A stretch of 64,000 nt of DNA from Deltaproteobacteria bacterium (lineage in GTDB: Bacteria; Myxococcota_A; Polyangia; HGW-17), in NCBI GenBank assembly GCA_016937155.1, contig JAFGWM010000015.1:1-64000 (forward strand), given 5' to 3'. The stretch's first letter is position 1, and every line of letters begins with the position of its first letter. The notes beneath the pieces are model-generated. The model saw only the letters and a program-made list of their open reading frames with translations, was not told the origin of the DNA and made no database searches. Shown in pieces: positions 47,878 to 57,727 of this stretch. A program made the translations under genes and the position numbers.

Positions 47878-47902
47878 ATAGTTAGCTGTTACAAATTTCA
47901 CA

Positions 47903-47921
47903 GCGTTAAATGTGTAACAGC
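47903..47921. promoter_or_regulatory. Rex-type operator
   Basis: GCGTTAA-ATGT-GTAACAGC matches the Rex consensus TTGTTAA-N4-TTAACAA at 10 of the 14 defined positions, including both GTTA/TAAC cores with the correct six-base spacing. It lies between the promoter and the rex start codon, a position suited to NADH-relieved repression. Confidence 0.65.
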
Positions 47922-47937
47922 AAAATGGAGATTGCTT

Positions 47938-48579
47938 ATGAACGCATCAGATAAAGTTATCGGTCGGTTAAGTCATTACCGGCTACTTCTTTCAAAGTTG
48001 GAATCTCAGGGAAAGACTTTTGTTTTTAGCAGAGAACTCGCCATCATGGCGGATGGAACGAGTGCACAGGTTAGGAGAGACCTTATGGTCACCGGCTATG
48101 AGGGAAATCCTAAACAGGGATACAACGTCAGTGATCTTCTTGATGAGTTGAATAAGTTTTTTAATTTCAGCCGTGGGGTAAACGCAGTTCTGATCGGTAC
48201 AGGAAGTCTTGGCAGGGCATTACTGTCCTATTTCATGCCAAAAAAATCCCGATATAACATTATGGCTGCATTTGACTCTGAACTTTCAAAAACAGGACGC
48301 ATTATCGCCGGAACCAGATGCTGCCATATTAATGAACTGGAGTTTGAACTGAAATCCCTTGGTAGTGTTGTTGCTATACTGACACTTCCCGCTGAGGCTG
48401 CTCAGACCATGGCAACAAGACTTACTAATTGTGGAATAAAAGGAATTCTGAATTTTGCACCAGTCAGGCTCAGAGTTCCGGACGATGTTTATGTGGAAAA
48501 TATTGATGTGACCATGTCACTGGAAAAAGTTGCATTTTTTGCAAATCAAAAATCAGAGGATCGGGAGAAAGAGGTTTAA
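47938..48579 (+). CDS. rex: Redox-sensing transcriptional repressor Rex
   Basis: The 213-residue protein has the Rex winged helix ('RLSHYRLLLSKLESQGKTFV', 'TSAQVRRDLMVTG..GNPKQGYNV') and a Rossmann domain with VLIGTGSLGRALL, binding NAD(H). Rex represses fermentation and hydrogenase genes until NADH rises. ATG 47938 is preceded by GGAG and by the promoter and operator; an upstream in-frame ATG is rejected. It leads the operon: hydC follows two bases after its stop. Confidence 0.95.
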   Translation: MNASDKVIGRLSHYRLLLSKLESQGKTFVFSRELAIMADGTSAQVRRDLMVTGYEGNPKQGYNVSDLLDELNKFFNFSRGVNAVLIGTGSLGRALLSYFMPKKSRYNIMAAFDSELSKTGRIIAGTRCCHINELEFELKSLGSVVAILTLPAEAAQTMATRLTNCGIKGILNFAPVRLRVPDDVYVENIDVTMSLEKVAFFANQKSEDREKEV

Positions 48580-48581
48580 TT

Positions 48582-49058
48582 ATGAGTAACATTTCTCTAA
48601 CGGATATTTTAAAGGAGTTCAGGGATCCGGCACGTGATTCCCTTATTCCCATTTTACAGAGAGAACAGCAGCAGCGTGGTTTTATAAGCAAGGAGGCGAT
48701 GATTGTCATAGGTGAAAAATTAAATCTGCCTGTGAGCAAAGTTTACGGTGTTGCATCTTTTTATAACCAGTTTCGGTTCAATGCTCCGGGTTTGCATCAG
48801 ATACAGGTCTGTAGAGGAACCGCATGCCATGTAAAAGGAAGCAGCACAGTTCTTGATTCTCTTGAAATGGATGTTGGATGTAAAAGTGGGGAAACCTCAA
48901 AAGATGGATTGTTCAGTATAGAAGTGGTTGCATGTGTGGGAGCATGTTCTCTCGCTCCGGTTGTTGTTGTTGATGGTGAATTCCATGCTGGAATGGATAG
49001 CACGAAAATGCGAAAAATTAATAAAACGTTAAGGAAGGTTCATAATGCTGAAAGATAA
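48582..49058 (+). CDS. hydC: NuoE-like [2Fe-2S] subunit of [FeFe]-hydrogenase
   Basis: The 158-residue protein is a thioredoxin-fold ferredoxin like NuoE/HydC/HndA: helical N-terminus ('LIPILQREQQQRGFIS', 'PVSKVYGVASFYNQF'), then the four Cys of the 2Fe-2S cluster in CRGTACHVKG and VACVGACSLAP. It passes electrons between the NAD(P)H-oxidising subunit and the hydrogenase. It overlaps the next gene by 14 bp. Confidence 0.95.
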   Translation: MSNISLTDILKEFRDPARDSLIPILQREQQQRGFISKEAMIVIGEKLNLPVSKVYGVASFYNQFRFNAPGLHQIQVCRGTACHVKGSSTVLDSLEMDVGCKSGETSKDGLFSIEVVACVGACSLAPVVVVDGEFHAGMDSTKMRKINKTLRKVHNAER

Positions 49059-51042
49059 CCTTTTTTCCAGATGCTGTGATAAATGCTGGCATAGCAGTGA
49101 AAAGGCATGTCCTGATTATATTTCATGTCTGACTCAGGGCCCACTTTGTCATCATGATGAGAAATGTGAAAACAAAAAAAAAGAAAATATCTCCAGAATC
49201 ACATTGAAAAGTATGGAAAAACCAATGATCTTCATGGGCCTTGGAACCTGTGGGATGGGAGCAGGAGCTTTAAAAACTCTTGAAGAGCTGGAAAATGTAA
49301 TAAAAGAAGAAAATATTGATGTGGAAATAAGGAAGACCGGATGTATTGGACTATGTACTCTGGAACCGCTTCTGGATATAAAAATGCCCGGAAGAACCAG
49401 GCTTTCATATGGCCATGTTACTGAAAAGAATGTTCGCAAAATCCTTAATTCGGTAATTAATGGAAAGCCCGAGGAAGAAAATCTAATAGGGCAGCATTTT
49501 TCAGATGGTGACGAAAACTGGAAGAATGTTCCTGGATTTTTCGACCATCCGTTTTTTATCAACCAGAAAAGATGGGTTTTAAAAAACTGCGGAATAAACG
49601 ATCCCGTGGATCTTGAGCAGTATTTAGCAAATGGCGGTTTTCTTGCATTTGAAAAAATTCTAAAAAATGAACTGCAGGCCAGTGTGTGTGATGAAATTGA
49701 AAAAAGTAATCTCAGAGGTAGAGGCGGTGGAGGATTTCCCACAGGGAAAAAATGGAAATTTGCATTGAATACTCCTGCAGATCAGAAATATATGATTTGT
49801 AATGCTGACGAAGGGGATCCGGGCGCGTTTATGGACAGGGCACTAATCGAAGGGGATCCTTACCGCCTGCTGGAAGGGCTTATGATAGCGTCCTATGCAA
49901 TTGGAGCAACTCAGGCCTATGTATACATTAGAGCCGAATATCCACTGGCCATTGAAAGACTTATTGAAGCGATCTCAAATTTAAAAAAATTTGGTTTTAT
50001 TGGTGAAAATATTCTCGACAGTGGTTTCTCTCTGAAAATTAAAATAAAGAAAGGGGCAGGGGCTTTTGTCTGTGGTGAAGAAACAGCCCTAATCCATTCA
50101 ATTGAAGGTAAAAGAGGAATGCCCAGGGTGCGACCTCCATTTCCGGCAACTCGTGGGCTTTTTGATAAACCGACAATTATCAACAATGTCGAAACACTCT
50201 GCAATATACCGGACATAATAACTAATGGATACGAATGGTTTTGCGCTGCTGGTACTGAAACATCCAAAGGAACCAAGGTATTCGCACTGAGTGGAAATCT
50301 CAATTATACGGGACTTGTTGAAGTGGAGATGGGAACTCCAATAAGAGAGATAATATTTCAAACCGGTGGTGGTATCCCGGATAACAGAGAATTTAAAGCT
50401 GCTCAGATTGGTGGTCCTTCTGGTGGGTGTATACCTCCTCAGCACCTTGATATAAAAGTTGATTATGAAAATCTGAAAACTGTGGGCGCTATGATGGGTA
50501 GCGGCGGACTGGTCATTATGGATGACAAGGCATGTATGGTTGATGTTGCTAAATTCTTCATGGATTTTATCCAGCGGGAGAGCTGTGGAAAATGTATTCC
50601 ATGCAGGGAAGGCACCAGAAGGATGCTTGAGATTCTACAGATGGTTACATCAAATCCATCATCAGATAGCTCCATGAATTCTCTTGAGCGGCTATCGGGT
50701 ATTATTACTCTGGAAAAACTGGCTGAAATAATTAAGTCGACAAGCCTATGCGGACTGGGACAAACAGCACCAAATCCAGTTATTAGTACTCTCAGATATT
50801 TTCGCAGTGAGTATGAAGAGCATATTTTCAACAGGAAATGTTCAGCTAAGGTCTGTAAAGAGCTTCTCACCTATCAGATAGATGAAGATAAATGTACTGG
50901 ATGTACTCTTTGCGCAAGGGTTTGTCCTTCTGAGGCCATTAAGGGTGCCGTGAAGAGTCCCCATTATATAATTTCTGAAAACTGTGTCAGGTGCGGTAGT
51001 TGCCTTGTGGCATGCAGACAGAATGCAATTAGCGTTTATTAA
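49045..51042 (+). CDS. hydB: NuoF-like NAD(P)H/FMN subunit of [FeFe]-hydrogenase
   Basis: The 665-residue protein has, in order: a Cys-rich N-terminal extension (CCDKC...CPDYISC...CHHDEKC, residues 8-42), a thioredoxin-like 2Fe-2S domain ('GTCGMGAGA', 'TGCIGLC'), the NuoF domain with FMN/NADH motifs ('LRGRGGGGFPTG', 'CNADEGDPGAFMDR', 'VCGEETALIHSIEGKRG'), an SLBB segment, the 4Fe-4S site (CGKCIPCREG), and two terminal 4Fe-4S motifs (CTGCTLCARVCP, CVRCGSCLVACR). It oxidises or reduces NAD(P)H. Such trimers are often electron-bifurcating. AAGGAAGG precedes the ATG. Confidence 0.95.
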   Translation: MLKDNLFSRCCDKCWHSSEKACPDYISCLTQGPLCHHDEKCENKKKENISRITLKSMEKPMIFMGLGTCGMGAGALKTLEELENVIKEENIDVEIRKTGCIGLCTLEPLLDIKMPGRTRLSYGHVTEKNVRKILNSVINGKPEEENLIGQHFSDGDENWKNVPGFFDHPFFINQKRWVLKNCGINDPVDLEQYLANGGFLAFEKILKNELQASVCDEIEKSNLRGRGGGGFPTGKKWKFALNTPADQKYMICNADEGDPGAFMDRALIEGDPYRLLEGLMIASYAIGATQAYVYIRAEYPLAIERLIEAISNLKKFGFIGENILDSGFSLKIKIKKGAGAFVCGEETALIHSIEGKRGMPRVRPPFPATRGLFDKPTIINNVETLCNIPDIITNGYEWFCAAGTETSKGTKVFALSGNLNYTGLVEVEMGTPIREIIFQTGGGIPDNREFKAAQIGGPSGGCIPPQHLDIKVDYENLKTVGAMMGSGGLVIMDDKACMVDVAKFFMDFIQRESCGKCIPCREGTRRMLEILQMVTSNPSSDSSMNSLERLSGIITLEKLAEIIKSTSLCGLGQTAPNPVISTLRYFRSEYEEHIFNRKCSAKVCKELLTYQIDEDKCTGCTLCARVCPSEAIKGAVKSPHYIISENCVRCGSCLVACRQNAISVY

Positions 51043-51053
51043 GGAGTATCCTG

Positions 51054-52772
51054 ATGTTAGAACTGATAGTTAATGATAAACCGGTAAAGGCTGATAAAGG
51101 TGAAATGCTGTTAAGTGTTCTTCGGCGCCAAGGCATTGACATTCCCACATTATGTCACGTTGAAGGTCTAACTCCTACAGGTGCCTGCAGGCTTTGTGTA
51201 GTTGAAGTGGAAGGACAAAGCGGACTGGTTCCAAGCTGTGCCTGTCAGGTTTACAACGGTATGAAAGTTAAAACCCATACAAACAGACTGATTGAAGCGC
51301 GTCGGACACTTCTGGAACTTATTATGAGTTCTCATCCTGATGACTGTTTGTACTGCCAGAGGAGAGATACATGCGAACTTCTGGAACTTGCAAGCAAACT
51401 GGGAATTAAAGAACGCCGCTATAAAAGTGTCAGGAGTAATCCTTCTCTTGATATTTCAAGCCCTTCTATAGTAAGGGATCCTTCTAAATGTATTTTGTGT
51501 GGAAGATGTGTGAGGGTTTGTGAGGAAATTCAAGGTGTTGGAGCAATTGATTTCATCGGAAGAGGTTCTGACTGCAGTGTGGGAACAGCATTTAATGAAG
51601 GATTAAATACTTCCAGTTGTGTTAACTGTGGTCAGTGCATAACGGCATGCCCGGTTGGAGCTCTTACGGAAGCACGTCACATAAACCGTGTTTTAAATGC
51701 TATGAGTAATCCCGAATTGACAATAGTGGTTCAACACGCTCCAGCGGTTAGTGTAACCCTAGGTGAGATGTATAATCTTCCATCCGCTGCGGATGTCCAG
51801 GGAGTTATGATTGCCGGACTCAGAAAAGCAGGTTTCGATTTTGTGTTTGATACAGGATTTAGTGCTGATCTTACAATAATGGAGGAGGCAAGTGAGCTGG
51901 TATCAAGAATATCAAATGGCGGTGTTTTGCCGATGATGACCAGTTGTTCCCCTGCCTGGGTAAAATTTGTTGAGCAGTACTATCCGGAAATGATTCCTTC
52001 ACTTTCCACATGTAAAAGTCCAATGCAGATGCTTGGAGCAATTACAAAATCCTGGTGGGCTGAAAAGAACAAATTAGATAAATCAAAAATATTCAGTGTA
52101 GCGGTAATGCCTTGTACAGCAAAGAAATTTGAAGCATCAAGACCGGAAATGGGTATCGGAATACCTGATATTGATGCTGTTCTTACAACCAGAGAACTAT
52201 ACGATTTATTTAACATAAAGGGAGTAAAGCCTTTCGAATTAAAACCCATGAATAATGATAATCCTTTTGGGCAGCGAAGTACTGCAGGAAAGCTTTTCGG
52301 AGCAACTGGTGGGGTTATGGAAGCCGCTATCAGAACGGCGCATTTTTTAATCACCGGGGAAAATATGAAAAATCCTGTAATAACTGAACTTCGTGATATG
52401 ACAGGAATAAAAGAAGCCAGAGTGAAAATAGGTGAACTTGAAATCGGTGTTGCTGTTGCCAGTGGACTGTCCAACGCGAGAAAACTGCTTGATGAAATAA
52501 AGATGGGAAGAAAAGATATTCATTTCATAGAAATAATGTCCTGTCCCGGTGGATGCATAGGAGGTGGTGGGCAACCATATGGAACTGATTTTGAGAGTGT
52601 CCGTAACCGTATGTCGTTACTTTATAAAATTGATAAAGAAGAAACTGTAAAATATAGTCATGAAAATCAAAGTATTTCCGAACTTTATCGTGATTTTCTT
52701 GGAAAACCATTAAGCGGGAAAAGTCATACTCTTCTCCATACAGAGTATATGAACCGTGTTGTGATGAAATAA
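51054..52772 (+). CDS. hydA: [FeFe]-hydrogenase catalytic subunit
   Basis: The 572-residue protein has an N-terminal 2Fe-2S domain (Cys34, 45, 48, 61/63), a His-Cys 4Fe-4S site (H94, C98, C101, C107), two 4Fe-4S motifs (146-156 and 189-199) and the H-cluster domain with L1 TSCSPAW (about 296-302), L2 MPCTAKKFE (about 352-360) and L3 CPGGCIGGGG. It interconverts protons and H2 in the cytosol. L1 has Ser where the common motif is TSCCP. Maturation genes hydEFG are not in the window. It follows hydB by 11 bp. Confidence 0.95.
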   Translation: MLELIVNDKPVKADKGEMLLSVLRRQGIDIPTLCHVEGLTPTGACRLCVVEVEGQSGLVPSCACQVYNGMKVKTHTNRLIEARRTLLELIMSSHPDDCLYCQRRDTCELLELASKLGIKERRYKSVRSNPSLDISSPSIVRDPSKCILCGRCVRVCEEIQGVGAIDFIGRGSDCSVGTAFNEGLNTSSCVNCGQCITACPVGALTEARHINRVLNAMSNPELTIVVQHAPAVSVTLGEMYNLPSAADVQGVMIAGLRKAGFDFVFDTGFSADLTIMEEASELVSRISNGGVLPMMTSCSPAWVKFVEQYYPEMIPSLSTCKSPMQMLGAITKSWWAEKNKLDKSKIFSVAVMPCTAKKFEASRPEMGIGIPDIDAVLTTRELYDLFNIKGVKPFELKPMNNDNPFGQRSTAGKLFGATGGVMEAAIRTAHFLITGENMKNPVITELRDMTGIKEARVKIGELEIGVAVASGLSNARKLLDEIKMGRKDIHFIEIMSCPGGCIGGGGQPYGTDFESVRNRMSLLYKIDKEETVKYSHENQSISELYRDFLGKPLSGKSHTLLHTEYMNRVVMK

Positions 52773-52783
52773 GGGGAATAACT

Positions 52784-54787
52784 ATGAACTTCCGACACCT
52801 TGAGCTTGTCCGGACAATAAAAGATAAATGCCGAACCTGCTATACATGTGTAAGAAATTGCCCCGCAAAGGCCATTCGAATTTTCGATGGACAGGCCGAG
52901 GTGATCGGTGACAGATGCATAGGTTGTGGGAATTGTGTGAGAGTCTGTACACAGAATGCAAAAGAAGTGATCAGTTGTTCTGAAACAGCTGAAAGACTGT
53001 TGGAAAACAGGAATATCAGGACAGCAGCACTTGTGGCACCTAGTTTTCCGGCTGAATTTAATGATTTTGGTCATGAAGTTTTTGTTGGGATGCTAAGGAA
53101 GCTTGGTTTCGATCTGGTTATCGAAGTTGCTTTTGCTGCTGATGTAGTAGCTGAAAAGTATAGAGAAATATATGAGAAGGGTGAGCTCAACCCATGTATA
53201 GAAGCATCCTGTCCCGGGATTGTCAGTTATATTGAGAAATACCATCCTACTTTGATTAAGAATCTTGGCCCGATTGTTTCACCTATGACAGCATCCTCTC
53301 GAATTGTGGATAAACTTTACGGGAAGGGAATCAGGAAAATCTTCATAGGGCCATGCATTGCAAAAAAAGGAGAGGCGAGTGATCCAGATACCGGGATTAG
53401 CTGCTCAATACTATTCAGTGAGCTCAGGACGATGTTTAATCGTAAAAATATCTACGCTGATAATATTGAAGAGTCTGATTTCGACCAACCTCATGGTGCT
53501 ATGGGACGGATATATGCACTTAATCATGGTTTTCTCCAAACCGCAGGAATTGATGAAAGTCTTCTTAGAAGTGATGTGATCAGTGCTGCTGGACAATCCA
53601 ACTTTGTTGAAGCCATCAGGGAGTTCGAACAGGGTAATCTCGATGTTAAACTACTTGAAATACTCTGCTGTCAGGGATGCGTTATGGGAGCAGGATTCAC
53701 TAATTCCAGTCCTCTTTTCCATCGCAATGCAAGGGTCAGTGAATATGCCAAAAAACGTCAGGAATCCTTTGACGAAGATGTATGGAAATCATACGTCGAA
53801 ATGGTTAAGGACCTGGATTATTCGAGGAAGTATGATGAAGATGACAGCCGCCTGGAAAGTCCCAATGAAGAGCAATTGAGAGCTATTCTTGATTCCATGG
53901 GCAAAATGGGACCTGAGGATGAACTCAATTGTATGGCATGTGGCTATGAAACTTGTGTGGAACATGCTGCTGCAATTCACAAGGGACTAGCTGAACGTGA
54001 AATGTGTCTGCCATATGTAATTGAACGGCTGAAAAACACTGTTACCGAACTGGAATTTAGTAGCACTGAACTGGCAAACACTCAGAGAGCATTGATGCAT
54101 TCAGAAAGACTCGCATCCATGGGGCAGTTAGCCGCTGGTATTGCCCATGAAGTCAACAATCCTCTAGGGGTTATCCTGTTATATTCACATTTATTACTGG
54201 AAAAGGTTGAAAGTATTGGAAATAAAGAAGAACTCCAGATGATAGTTCAGCAGACTGAGCGATGCAAGCGTATTGTCTCAGGTCTGCTTAACTTTGCCAG
54301 ACAAAATAAAGTTGCCAGACAACCGGTTCATATTTTGAAGCTTTGCACTGAGGTGACCGAATCATTGCATGTCCCGGATAATATAAAAGTTGTAGTCACT
54401 CAGGCGTGCAGTGATCCTGTGGCGGAGGTTGACAGGGATCAGATTGCTCAGGTGATAACCAATCTTATCACCAACTCAATTGATGCAATGAGCGATGGTG
54501 GTGAAATTTTAATCAGAATGGAGGGAACTGAGCAATCAGTAAAAATCATTTTCAGAGATACCGGGTGCGGGATTAGTCAGGACAATCTCCCAAAGATTTT
54601 TACACCATTTTTCACGACAAAAAAGATTGGCAAGGGTACCGGTCTTGGTTTGCCTGTGACTTATGGAATTATCAAAATGCATTTGGGACAAATTAATGTG
54701 GAAAGTAATACTGATCCTGAAAAAGGAGCAGTTGGAACGGTATTTACCATTAAATTTCCTAGAAATGAATCGCCTAACGGAGCATAA
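52784..54787 (+). CDS. [FeFe]-hydrogenase-like domain fused to a histidine kinase (H2/redox sensor)
   Basis: The 667-residue soluble protein has two ferredoxin motifs (C16-C26 and C45-C55), a hydrogenase large-subunit-like domain (about 75-345), a further 4Fe-4S motif (CMACGYETC...C, about 383-410), a coiled coil, a HisKA domain with the phosphoacceptor in GIAHEVNNPL (about 450) and a HATPase domain (NLITNSIDAM, DTGCGI, GTGLGLP). The L1 region reads EASCPG, with Ser at the proton-relay Cys position but the cluster ligand retained; L2 (IGPCIAKK) and L3 (CCQGC) keep their Cys. It likely senses H2 or redox state and phosphorylates the receivers downstream. Confidence 0.92.
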   Translation: MNFRHLELVRTIKDKCRTCYTCVRNCPAKAIRIFDGQAEVIGDRCIGCGNCVRVCTQNAKEVISCSETAERLLENRNIRTAALVAPSFPAEFNDFGHEVFVGMLRKLGFDLVIEVAFAADVVAEKYREIYEKGELNPCIEASCPGIVSYIEKYHPTLIKNLGPIVSPMTASSRIVDKLYGKGIRKIFIGPCIAKKGEASDPDTGISCSILFSELRTMFNRKNIYADNIEESDFDQPHGAMGRIYALNHGFLQTAGIDESLLRSDVISAAGQSNFVEAIREFEQGNLDVKLLEILCCQGCVMGAGFTNSSPLFHRNARVSEYAKKRQESFDEDVWKSYVEMVKDLDYSRKYDEDDSRLESPNEEQLRAILDSMGKMGPEDELNCMACGYETCVEHAAAIHKGLAEREMCLPYVIERLKNTVTELEFSSTELANTQRALMHSERLASMGQLAAGIAHEVNNPLGVILLYSHLLLEKVESIGNKEELQMIVQQTERCKRIVSGLLNFARQNKVARQPVHILKLCTEVTESLHVPDNIKVVVTQACSDPVAEVDRDQIAQVITNLITNSIDAMSDGGEILIRMEGTEQSVKIIFRDTGCGISQDNLPKIFTPFFTTKKIGKGTGLGLPVTYGIIKMHLGQINVESNTDPEKGAVGTVFTIKFPRNESPNGA

Positions 54788-54797
54788 AGGAGAATTT

Positions 54798-55196
54798 ATG
54801 AATTATTTTAATAAGAACGTATTGTTGGTTGATGATGATCCGGATGTACTTGAGCAGCAAAACGTGCTTCTCAAAAGTCTGGGATTCAATACTGTCTGTG
54901 CATCGGGAGAATCAGAAGCTATGGATATTTTAAAAAGTTTTAAGCCTGATCTGGCTGTGATTGATCTGATGATGGAAGAGATGGACGGTGGTTTTATACT
55001 GGCATATGAAATTAAGAAAATCAGCAATGATATTCCTGTGATAATGACCACCGCGGTTACAAATGTAACGGGTATGGAGTTTGAAAACTCTTCATTGGAA
55101 GAAAAGAACTGGATTAAAGCTGATGTGATTCTTCCTAAACCAGTGAGATTTGAACAATTAAAAGGCGAAATTCAACGCCTTTTCATGGAGGACTGA
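54798..55196 (+). CDS. Single-domain response regulator
   Basis: The 132-residue protein is a lone receiver: acidic pair in LLVDDDPD, phosphoacceptor in VIDLMMEEMDGG, Thr in MTTAV and Lys in LPKPV. The start is set by AAAGGAG before ATG 54798. It follows the hydrogenase-like kinase by 10 bp and ends one base before the next gene, so it is a likely phosphate acceptor from that kinase. Confidence 0.92.
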   Translation: MNYFNKNVLLVDDDPDVLEQQNVLLKSLGFNTVCASGESEAMDILKSFKPDLAVIDLMMEEMDGGFILAYEIKKISNDIPVIMTTAVTNVTGMEFENSSLEEKNWIKADVILPKPVRFEQLKGEIQRLFMED

Positions 55197-55197
55197 C

Positions 55198-56349
55198 ATG
55201 GATAACACCAGCCAGAAGCTCAAAGTATTTGTGGTTGATGATGAACCTGGAATTTGCCTTGGGGTTGGTGCGATTTTACGTGATTTTAAAGTGAATGATC
55301 AGACTTCAAATTCTCAGGTGGAATTTGAAATTTTTACATTCAATGACGGTGAATCGATGATTGAATCACTGGAAAAAGAGGTACCTCATCTTTTGTTACT
55401 TGACTGTAAGCTTCCAGGAATTGATGGTATGGAAATACTCGAAAATTATCTTAATCCTGAGAATGAAATTCTTACAATCATGATAACAGCCTATGCAACA
55501 ATCGAAACAGCAATAAAGGCCACAAAACTTGGAGCATATGATTTTCTGGCAAAACCATTCACTCCTGACGAACTCAGATACACAGTTAGAAAAGCAGTCA
55601 CTCATATAATGCTTAGAGGGCAGGCTAAAAGACTGGAAGAGGAGAAAAAAAGGATTCGTTTTGAATTCATCAGAGTGCTGGCACATGAATTGAAAAGTCC
55701 AATCAACGCAGTGGACGGATATCTTGATCTTATTAAAAACAGAATTTTAGGTGATGAAATAGAAGCGTATGATGGTCTCGTTGAAAAATCTGTAATCAGA
55801 ATTGACGGAATGAGAAAAATGATAGGGGATCTGCTTGATCTTACAAGGATTGAATCAGGTCAGAAAAAGAGGATGATAGAAAATATTGACATTATAGAAA
55901 TCGCAAAAAATTCCATTGAGCTAAATTGTCTGTCTGCAGAAAAATCAAACATCAATATTGAGTTGTTTTCACCAGATTCCCTCTTTATGTCAGCTGATTC
56001 CGGGGAAATACAGATTATTTTTAACAATCTTATTAGTAATGCGGTGAAATATAATATTAAAAATGGTAATGTTTTTATACGAATAAGCGAAGATAATAAT
56101 TTAGTAAACATTGAGGTGGAGGATACTGGAATCGGGTTGACTTCTGATGAACTTAGTAAACTGTTTAACGAGTTTTCAAGGATAAAGAATGAAAAAACCA
56201 GAAATATCCAGGGAAGTGGTCTGGGGCTTTCAATTGTTAAAAAGATATCAGGTCTCTATGGTGGAGATGTTGATTGTTCAAGTACTTCAGGTAAAGGAAG
56301 CATCTTTTATGTGACTTTAAATAAAACTACTGTGGAGGGTCAATTATGA
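55198..56349 (+). CDS. Receiver-histidine kinase hybrid protein
   Basis: The 383-residue protein has an N-terminal receiver domain ('VVDDEPGICLG', LDCKLPGIDG, MITAYAT, LAKPF), a short coiled coil, HisKA (phosphoacceptor in LAHELKSPINAV) and HATPase (NLISNAVKYN, DTGIGLT, GSGLGLSI). Its receiver first in order means its kinase activity can be controlled by phosphorylation from the upstream sensor. Membrane segments are absent. Its stop overlaps the ATG of the next receiver gene. Confidence 0.93.
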   Translation: MDNTSQKLKVFVVDDEPGICLGVGAILRDFKVNDQTSNSQVEFEIFTFNDGESMIESLEKEVPHLLLLDCKLPGIDGMEILENYLNPENEILTIMITAYATIETAIKATKLGAYDFLAKPFTPDELRYTVRKAVTHIMLRGQAKRLEEEKKRIRFEFIRVLAHELKSPINAVDGYLDLIKNRILGDEIEAYDGLVEKSVIRIDGMRKMIGDLLDLTRIESGQKKRMIENIDIIEIAKNSIELNCLSAEKSNINIELFSPDSLFMSADSGEIQIIFNNLISNAVKYNIKNGNVFIRISEDNNLVNIEVEDTGIGLTSDELSKLFNEFSRIKNEKTRNIQGSGLGLSIVKKISGLYGGDVDCSSTSGKGSIFYVTLNKTTVEGQL

Positions 56350-56828
56350 GTTCTTCACATGAAATTTTTTCTAACCTGCAAAATGCAAAAGGAGAAGACA
56401 TCATGGCAAAAATTATCTGTATCGACGACGATTTGGACGTAACAGAATTCCTCAGAATCACACTCGAAGCAAAAGGTTATGAAGTGGAAACTGCTCATAA
56501 CGGAGAGGATGGGTATGAAAAAGCATGCTCTTTTAAACCTGATATGATTATTCTGGATGTAATGATGTCAAATACAACTGAAGGATTCCACACAGCCTAT
56601 AAGTTCAGAAAGAATGAAGAGTTAAGCCTTGTTCCAATTCTGATGCTTACAAGTATTAATCAGGAGTTTAATTATAACTTCAGCATGGAAAAGGATGGGG
56701 AATTTCTTCCAGTAGATGATTTTGTTGAAAAACCAATCAGTTCAAAATCCCTACTGGAAAAAACTGAGAGGCTATTGACACTTCCCAAAGAAGAAATCAA
56801 CATCAAAGGAATCAAAAAAGTCATCTGA
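56346..56828 (+). CDS. Single-domain response regulator, last gene of the hydrogenase operon
   Basis: The 160-residue protein is a receiver domain ('ICIDDDLDVTEFL', phosphoacceptor in ILDVMMS, 'MLTSIN', FVEKPIS) with a short insertion before the final Lys region. The ATG at 56346 overlaps the upstream stop and has GGAGGG; a second ATG at 56403 with AAAGGAG starts exactly at the domain, so the true start is uncertain. It has no output domain and probably acts by protein contact. Confidence 0.9.
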   Translation: MSSSHEIFSNLQNAKGEDIMAKIICIDDDLDVTEFLRITLEAKGYEVETAHNGEDGYEKACSFKPDMIILDVMMSNTTEGFHTAYKFRKNEELSLVPILMLTSINQEFNYNFSMEKDGEFLPVDDFVEKPISSKSLLEKTERLLTLPKEEINIKGIKKVI

Positions 56829-57019: not shown

Positions 57020-57490
57020 TTATTTCTTGGCTTTTTCGTCTTTTTTAGCATCAGCCTTTTTTTCGTCTTTTTTAGGCTCTACTTTTTTCTCGTCTTTTTT
57101 CTCGTCTTTTTTAGGCTCTACTTTTTTCTCGTCTTTTTTCTCGTCTTTTTTAGGCTCTACTTTTTTTACATCAACTTTTGCAGGGATACCGAGGCATTTG
57201 GTAACAGCTTTGCAGTCACCTTTTGTTGCGATAACGCAATCATGAAGTTTTTTGCCTTTTTCATAACCGGGAGTCTTGGTGTCGTTACCTTTGGTGTTAC
57301 ATTCAGAGATTGCTTTGTCTTTTGGTAAACCTTTGGCCATATCAGGAATACATTTGTACATGTAATTTACCATGGTTTTGCAATCGATTCCGCCAGCCTT
57401 GGCTTCGCCGCCTTTTTTCTCATCTTCTTTTTTACAGCCAACGGCCATGGTGAATGTTCCTACTACTAGTAATACGATAAATTTTTTCAT
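57020..57490 (-). CDS. Lys-rich repeat lipoprotein with Cys-rich core
   Basis: The 156-residue protein has a signal peptide with lipobox AVGC, a core with six Cys (about 35-105) and a Lys/Asp/Glu/Pro-rich C-terminal tail with tandem VEPKKDEKKDEKK units. It should be anchored in the outer membrane or facing the periplasm with a positively charged tail that could bind peptidoglycan or LPS (inference). AAGGAG before ATG 57490 sets the start. Confidence 0.8.
   Translation of the reverse strand: MKKFIVLLVVGTFTMAVGCKKEDEKKGGEAKAGGIDCKTMVNYMYKCIPDMAKGLPKDKAISECNTKGNDTKTPGYEKGKKLHDCVIATKGDCKAVTKCLGIPAKVDVKKVEPKKDEKKDEKKVEPKKDEKKDEKKVEPKKDEKKADAKKDEKAKK
57074..57160. repeat. Tandem 39-bp repeat inside the Lys-rich lipoprotein gene
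   Basis: Two full 39-bp units beginning AGGCTCTACTTTTTTC at 57074 and 57113 and the start of a third at 57152 encode the 13-residue repeats on the minus strand. Near-identity at DNA level points to recent slippage or unequal exchange, so copy number may vary between strains. Confidence 0.8.
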
Positions 57491-57727
57491 TGTTTTTCTC
57501 CTTCCAAAACAAGTTATAAACACAGTGATTCTGAACCAATCATTGGAACAGTGGGGGCAATATAAACTGTAAATTAAAAAATATCAAGTTTAGAGTAAAT
57601 ATTGCTCAAACAGTTGTATAACAACAAATTAACGATAAATTTACTTTTTTGGTAATTGATATATACCTTGAGGCGGATTCCATTAATTGTTTTATGTGAT
57701 CCAACATAATTATGAGGACAGGACATA

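Follow-up and report, generated by a model that had tools for sequence, protein, structure and literature searches.

A hydrogenase-like sensor of group C type fused directly to a histidine kinase in a rex-hydCBA operon

Two putatively sensory [FeFe] hydrogenases, TmHydS of Thermotoga maritima (group C; PMC10055695) and TamHydS (group D; PMC8163306, PMC10407848, PMC13104023), bind the H-cluster and are capable of turnover (PMC10055695, PMC8163306), and the sensory role of both is described as putative. TmHydS has two N-terminal 4Fe-4S clusters, an H-domain, a C-terminal cluster and a PAS domain, while TamHydS has neither a PAS nor a kinase domain; the C-terminal cluster motif Cx2Cx4Cx16C has been published for groups C and D alike (PMC8163306). 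The RaHydS-type sensor of Ruminococcus albus (WP_013483411.1, pRUMAL01) also lacks a kinase, and its gene is followed by one for a SpoIIE phosphatase. PMC11406978 reported kinase fusions of two sorts, a histidine kinase domain in group C3 proteins and HATPase_C in group C1 proteins, with many of the proteins adjoining group A3 genes. It names HydDB relatives with kinase domains (the best HydDB hits cited are WP_006928132.1 and WP_005996231.1), assigns kinase-domain relatives to C1 and C3, and places PAS-type and kinase-type proteins both under C3, so a PAS domain is not required there. Among these is BfuT (group C3, sub-type V bfu clusters, Hydrogenedentota), an H-domain protein with a fused kinase encoded beside bfuABC (hydCBA). 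The paper also notes a resemblance between the gene order of sub-type V and the one in Caldithrix abyssi, where rex is followed by the hydrogenase subunits in one operon (Cabys_3675-3679); a kinase fusion is not described for this operon in PMC5317091. In the literature searched, we found no purification or assay of a member of the kinase-fused clade and no study showing the route by which a sensory [FeFe] hydrogenase transmits its signal, and the latest TamHydS paper lists finding an interaction partner as future work (PMC13104023).

Here, we describe HydS-HK, which is encoded in a window of 64,000 nucleotides, the whole stretch of DNA that was analyzed (Table 1). HydS-HK itself is unexceptional: the family to which it belongs is widespread, has been described before and accompanies hydrogenase genes of the electron-bifurcating type, and PMC11406978 already covers kinase-fused group C proteins next to group A3. 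Our analysis adds a constraint on the linker ahead of the kinase, a shortened P3 motif and the conservation of the receiver genes, although earlier descriptions may exist elsewhere. We found none of these three described for BfuT, a protein from a different phylum, in the available text of PMC11406978, and the literature searched gave no description of the P3 shortening. In this family, a helix of fixed phase joins sensor and kinase within a single polypeptide, so that H2 sensing could be read as autophosphorylation, which makes the question of how a sensory hydrogenase signals directly testable. The family is also large (at least 588 relatives), extends over many phyla and accompanies group A3-type hydrogenases, which are central to fermentation.

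Table 1. Positions of the operon genes in the window and of the domains and motifs of HydS-HK
Feature	Positions	Strand	Basis
rex, redox-sensing repressor, first operon gene	47938..48579	+	NCBIfam Rex subfamily, above cut-off
hydC (NuoE/HoxE-like)	48582..49058	+	
hydB (NuoF-like, CCxxC prefix, C-terminal ferredoxin)	49045..51042	+	
hydA, catalytic [FeFe] hydrogenase, group A3/A6	51054..52772	+	NF040763, 779 bits (cut-off 765)
HydS-HK, [FeFe]-hydrogenase-like sensor histidine kinase, 667 aa	52784..54787	+	Pfam domains and orthologues
Two ferredoxin-type 4Fe-4S motifs (residues 16-55)	52829..52948	+	Fer4 matches (about 15-59)
H-domain, PF02906 Fe_hyd_lg_C (residues 80-303)	53021..53692	+	Pfam, E 2.7e-43
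P1 motif EASCPG	53201..53218	+	Alignments to PDB chains
P2 motif GPCIAKKGE	53348..53374	+	G189, C191 and K194 invariant in 64 sequences
P3 motif EILCCQGCVMG, shortened C-x2-C (C296/C299)	53657..53689	+	Alignment
C-terminal FeS module PF04060, Cx2Cx4Cx16C (Cys span residues 383-408; Pfam 381-410)	53930..54007	+	
Putative coiled-coil signalling helix (residues 409-454)	54008..54145	+	Conservation, fixed length, predicted helix
HisKA (residues 446-507), phospho-acceptor H455	54119..54304	+	Pfam; H455 invariant
HATPase_c (residues 550-660), DTGCGI and GTGLGL boxes intact	54431..54763	+	Pfam
Stand-alone receiver RR1	54798..55196	+	Response_reg
Receiver-HisKA-HATPase protein RR-HK	55198..56349	+	Pfam
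Second stand-alone receiver RR2	56346..56828	+	Pfam

The first-pass annotation had proposed that a hydrogenase-like domain is fused directly to a histidine kinase in the operon of a catalytic hydrogenase and receivers, and our analysis bore out both points: Fe_hyd_lg_C, HisKA and HATPase_c lie in a single open reading frame, with hydCBA (A3/A6) upstream and receiver genes downstream. The Pfam matches of Fer4, Fe_hyd_lg_C, PF04060, HisKA and HATPase_c were each above the cut-off, and orthologues aligned over the full length with 42-70% identity. No PAS domain was matched by Pfam in HydS-HK; in its place, HisKA and HATPase_c come after the FeS module. The AlphaFold2 model (mean pLDDT, 89.2; pTM, 0.68) resembled solved [FeFe] hydrogenases in a structure match. 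The kinase is complete, with the HisKA phospho-His and conserved N, G1 and G2 ATP-binding boxes (N560/N564, D592-x-G-x-G and G618-TGLGL), and autophosphorylation is predicted. Judged by its domains, HydS-HK combines a hydrogenase-like sensor of H2 or redox state with a signalling kinase in direct fusion.

HydS-HK has the two N-terminal 4Fe-4S motifs, H-domain and Cx2Cx4Cx16C motif that define group C (M2f) (PMC8163306). It also lacks the relay Cys and carries Gly at the position of CpI M353 (S142 and G189), as does TmHydS with A131 and G177 (PMC10055695). However, it differs from TmHydS in having a kinase and no PAS domain, and in having Leu294 rather than Ser267 at the position of CpI M497. 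TamHydS shares the C-terminal cluster motif, the missing relay Cys and the Leu at M497, but it carries Ser at M353 and Glu252 at CpI V423, where HydS-HK has Gly189 and Phe250; the comparisons with TmHydS and TamHydS rest on published residue positions. RaHydS has the same pair of Fer4 motifs, H-domain, PF04060 module and GPC in P2. Membership of group D (M2e) was rejected on the basis of Gly189, Phe250 and the kinase, as opposed to Ser/Thr at M353, Glu at V423 and the lack of an output domain. A catalytic group A assignment was rejected as well, with EASCPG, GPC and EILCCQGC standing against TSC(C/S)PxW, MPC and ExMxCxxGC, and the protein scored far below the TIGR02512 cut-off (101 versus 406 bits). 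Overall, the sequence supports the reading of HydS-HK as a sensory [FeFe] hydrogenase of group C type in direct fusion with a histidine kinase.

A scan of genome contigs gave at least 588 confirmed relatives, 80 of which were kept for analysis. Among the matches listed, relatives were found in Bacteroidota, Ignavibacteria, Planctomycetota, Lentisphaerae, Kiritimatiellota, Acidobacteria, Myxococcota, Deltaproteobacteria, Hydrogenedentota, Actinomycetota, Melainabacteria and others, and a search of viral contigs gave no match. All sampled kinase-fused proteins formed one clade (SH-aLRT, 99) with two Bacteroidota PAS-type proteins (L159 and L160) nested inside, while the PAS-type RaHydS, an MCP-like protein and group D-like proteins fell outside; the maximum-likelihood tree was made by a quick method with SH-aLRT support only, and its long outgroup branches leave the deeper order unsure. 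The clade includes a protein (L049) from a metagenome-assembled genome figured in PMC11406978 (CSSed162cmA_463), which may be the BfuT gene product. Two related H-domain proteins (L161 and L162) had chemotaxis-receptor-like or PAS-like C-terminal regions, as judged by eye, which suggests that several signalling outputs occur on the H-domain scaffold. Within the phylum of the window, a strong match to the sensor profile was obtained in 26 of 379 sampled genomes, and some of these matches were PAS-type or group D-like proteins without a kinase. Presence is patchy, and transfer together with the hydrogenase cassette may reasonably be supposed.

As the first-pass annotation had stated, the four Cys ligands of the H-cluster are kept: C143 (P1), C191 (P2), and C296 and C299 (P3) were invariant in 64 aligned relatives. 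Gly189 and K194, the equivalent of CpI K358, were also invariant, and E197 was more than 90% conserved across the 64 proteins. Cys143 aligned with the CpI ligand C300, and Ser142 aligned with CpI C299, the proton relay, in alignments to PDB chains. That annotation had pointed out this Ser correctly, but its reading of the residue as a signature of sensing did not stand. In relatives, the relay position was occupied by D (26), T (24), S (23), A (11), P (4) and N (1), with 20 changes on the tree; Asp is the single replacement said to spare prototypical enzymes, and restoring the Cys in TmHydS (A131C) lowered activity (PMC10055695). Because the residue varies among relatives and the A131C variant lost activity, Ser142 carries little information on function. 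The conserved P1 Trp is absent from HydS-HK, and both Met residues that frame the diiron site (CpI M353 and M497) are replaced, by Gly189 and Leu294.

The P3 motif of the kinase-fused clade reads xCxGC, with the ligands spaced C-x2-C, one residue under the canonical C-x3-C, and this spacing was seen in 87 of 88 first-set kinase-fused proteins among the matches listed. HydS-HK has all four cubane-ligand cysteines and lacks the canonical P3 spacing, which was kept in L106 and L170, probably one gene, and in L172, and also occurs in RaHydS, the group D-like L128 and L165, and HydA. More than half of the sequences, including HydS-HK (Cys295), carry an extra Cys before the P3 pair (CCxGC), for which a C-x3-C reading is possible; the invariant cysteines are the two downstream ones. 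In CpI, one of the P3 ligands is the Cys that bridges the cubane and the diiron subsite. As nearly all kinase-fused members lack one residue of the canonical P3, they may or may not assemble a normal H-cluster. The shortening may also explain why, according to PMC11406978, P1 to P3 were hardly found in its C1 set. The nested PAS-type paralogues L159 and L160 have lost the Lys equivalent to K358 (GPCIGAK and GPCIEAK) and may have ceased to bind the diiron subsite. A tentative and somewhat unlikely extension of these results is that the kinase-fused clade has a modified site, with the two P3 ligands one residue closer than in characterized [FeFe] hydrogenases and holding an electronically or structurally altered H-cluster or the cubane alone, that is dedicated to heptad-phased coiled-coil signalling into a receiver-only phosphorelay.

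The 4Fe-4S module that the first-pass annotation had described as an addition between hydrogenase and kinase is present as Cx2Cx4Cx16C; however, since kinase-less group C/D proteins such as RaHydS carry PF04060 too, it is no peculiarity of HydS-HK. Its cysteines (C383, C386, C391 and C408) and the phospho-acceptor H455 were invariant in the 64 relatives, as were the eight Cys of the N-terminal ferredoxin-type motifs, so that all twelve accessory-cluster cysteines are conserved. The distance from C408 to H455 took only two values, 47 residues (96 proteins) and 40 residues (10 proteins). The first 90 proteins divided into 80 with a distance of 47 and 10 with a distance of 40, and all 16 further kinase-fused proteins had 47; a few of the 106 entries are the same gene obtained by two routes. 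The difference of 7 residues equals one heptad, and parsimony placed three changes between the two lengths on the tree, or maybe two, as one branch was poorly supported. The heptad positions L409, I413, L416, V420, L423, L430 and L437 were occupied by L, I, V, M or F in 92-100% of sequences. AlphaFold2 predicted a single helix from 409 to 456 that starts directly after C408, with confidence below 50 at residues 440-458, the junction of the helix and DHp. The spacing, fixed at 47 or 40 on a near-invariant leucine heptad, suggests coiled-coil signalling, in which helix 409-454 would link the FeS module to the DHp helix.

The genes form an unbroken run, rex-hydC-hydB-hydA-hydS-HK-receiver-receiver-kinase-receiver. 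The likely start of rex is the ATG at 47938, and the NCBIfam Rex match begins at residue 51 of a longer open reading frame. The hydA product passes the cut-off of NF040763, the NCBIfam model of NADH-dependent [FeFe] hydrogenase group A6, and its best PDB match was T. kivui HydA1 (8a6t); a second close solved relative is 7q4v, which we take to be A. woodii HydA1. Among the matches listed, HydA was directly upstream of the sensor in 64 of the 72 loci with enough flanking sequence, a receiver-kinase lay downstream in 68 of 70, a single receiver adjoined the sensor in 61 of 70, and Rex was within the retrieved stretch in 30 of 80. None of the receivers of the operon (54798-56828) has an output domain, leaving Rex as the sole DNA-binding protein encoded there, and RR1, RR-HK and RR2 look like a phosphorelay without an evident target. 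No output or DNA-binding genes were present among ten neighbors of the receiver-kinase from ten relatives, which encoded maturase-like radical-SAM enzymes, FAD synthetase, peptidases and a regulator propeller protein, with one giving no match. A Rex operator within 2 mismatches was found in Caldithrix abyssi, whereas upstream of rex in the window there was none within 3 mismatches. A weak Rex-like palindrome with four mismatches, CTGTTACAAATTTCACAG (47886-47903), is only a lead; it is overlapped by an inverted repeat, GCTGTTACA...TGTAACAGC (47885-47921), just 5' of the rex start. Promoter and terminator scans gave no more matches than shuffled sequence. The genome encodes three H-domain proteins, and HydF and HydG genes lie on one of its contigs with a third radical-SAM gene, consistent with HydE, between them; in several relatives, radical-SAM genes consistent with maturases come after the sensor cluster.

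We consider it probable that HydS-HK is a soluble H2/redox-sensing histidine kinase of group C type that signals via its FeS module and coiled coil to the adjacent receivers. HydEFG of the same genome would assemble an H-cluster in the H-domain, and H2 or the state of an electron carrier would set the redox state of this cluster and of the N-terminal clusters. A conformational change would then pass through the C-terminal FeS module and a dimeric coiled coil of fixed heptad phase to the DHp helix, set autophosphorylation or phosphatase activity at His455, and direct phosphate to the neighboring receivers and receiver-kinase, which would adjust the output of the Rex-associated HydABC hydrogenase. 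We infer H-cluster assembly, H2 as the signal, the direction of the response and coiled-coil transmission, and synteny points to the receivers as the phosphotransfer targets. The H-domain might instead hold only a [4Fe-4S] cluster, as in Nar1/NARF-like proteins, with HydS-HK sensing redox, O2 or Fe-S status rather than H2. The shortened P3, the loss of the P1 Trp and of both diiron-framing Met residues, and the missing Lys in L159 and L160 are in line with this idea, but the conservation of the four Cys, K194 and E197, the maturase genes carried by the genome and, in relatives, lying close to the cluster, and the binding of [2Fe]H by group C/D relatives without both Met (PMC10055695, PMC8163306) make it fairly unlikely.

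How the signal would leave the H-domain allows another reading, in which H2 reduces the C-terminal [4Fe-4S] cluster and the redox state of this cluster sets kinase activity, much as the first-pass annotation had suggested. The invariant cluster motif directly ahead of the kinase helix would suit such an electron-transfer relay. However, the C-terminal cluster of TamHydS was not reduced under 1 atm H2, and the H2-induced structural change was independent of its redox state (PMC13104023), which by analogy weakens a purely redox relay and leads us to regard it as unlikely; the analogy is imperfect, as TamHydS belongs to group D and has no kinase, and its charged C-terminal residues E392, D393 and D403 are unmatched in HydS-HK. 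A mechanical relay via the helix that begins at the last cluster Cys fits the sequence better. HydS-HK might also serve the neighboring HydABC complex, either as one of its partner subunits or as a redox-coupled reporter, and sense the electron flux of the complex and not free H2. The very tight linkage to hydCBA in most loci (among the matches listed) and the patchy presence in the phylum, which is compatible with transfer as one cassette, agree with this, but it is distinctly unlikely, as the protein comes with a full H-domain and ferredoxin clusters of its own, and a few loci among the matches listed lack hydA directly beside the sensor. Finally, the altered relay, M353 and M497 positions could mark a vestigial hydrogenase fused by chance to a constitutive kinase, yet ligands and kinase boxes invariant across many phyla and a linker length fixed modulo 7 make this very improbable.

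Two further features of the genome concern neighbors of HydS-HK. The catalytic HydA (51054-52772) carries TSCSPAW, with Ser at the position of the CpI C300 cubane ligand; the second HydA of the genome has the same motif, and TSCSP also occurs in PDB chain 7q4v_A and in many neighboring HydA genes. For group A3, a Ser in this place of P1 has been reported before (PMC11406978). Just after the operon, on the minus strand (57020-57523), there is a small lysine-rich, lipoprotein-like open reading frame with repeated VEPKKDEKKDEKK units.
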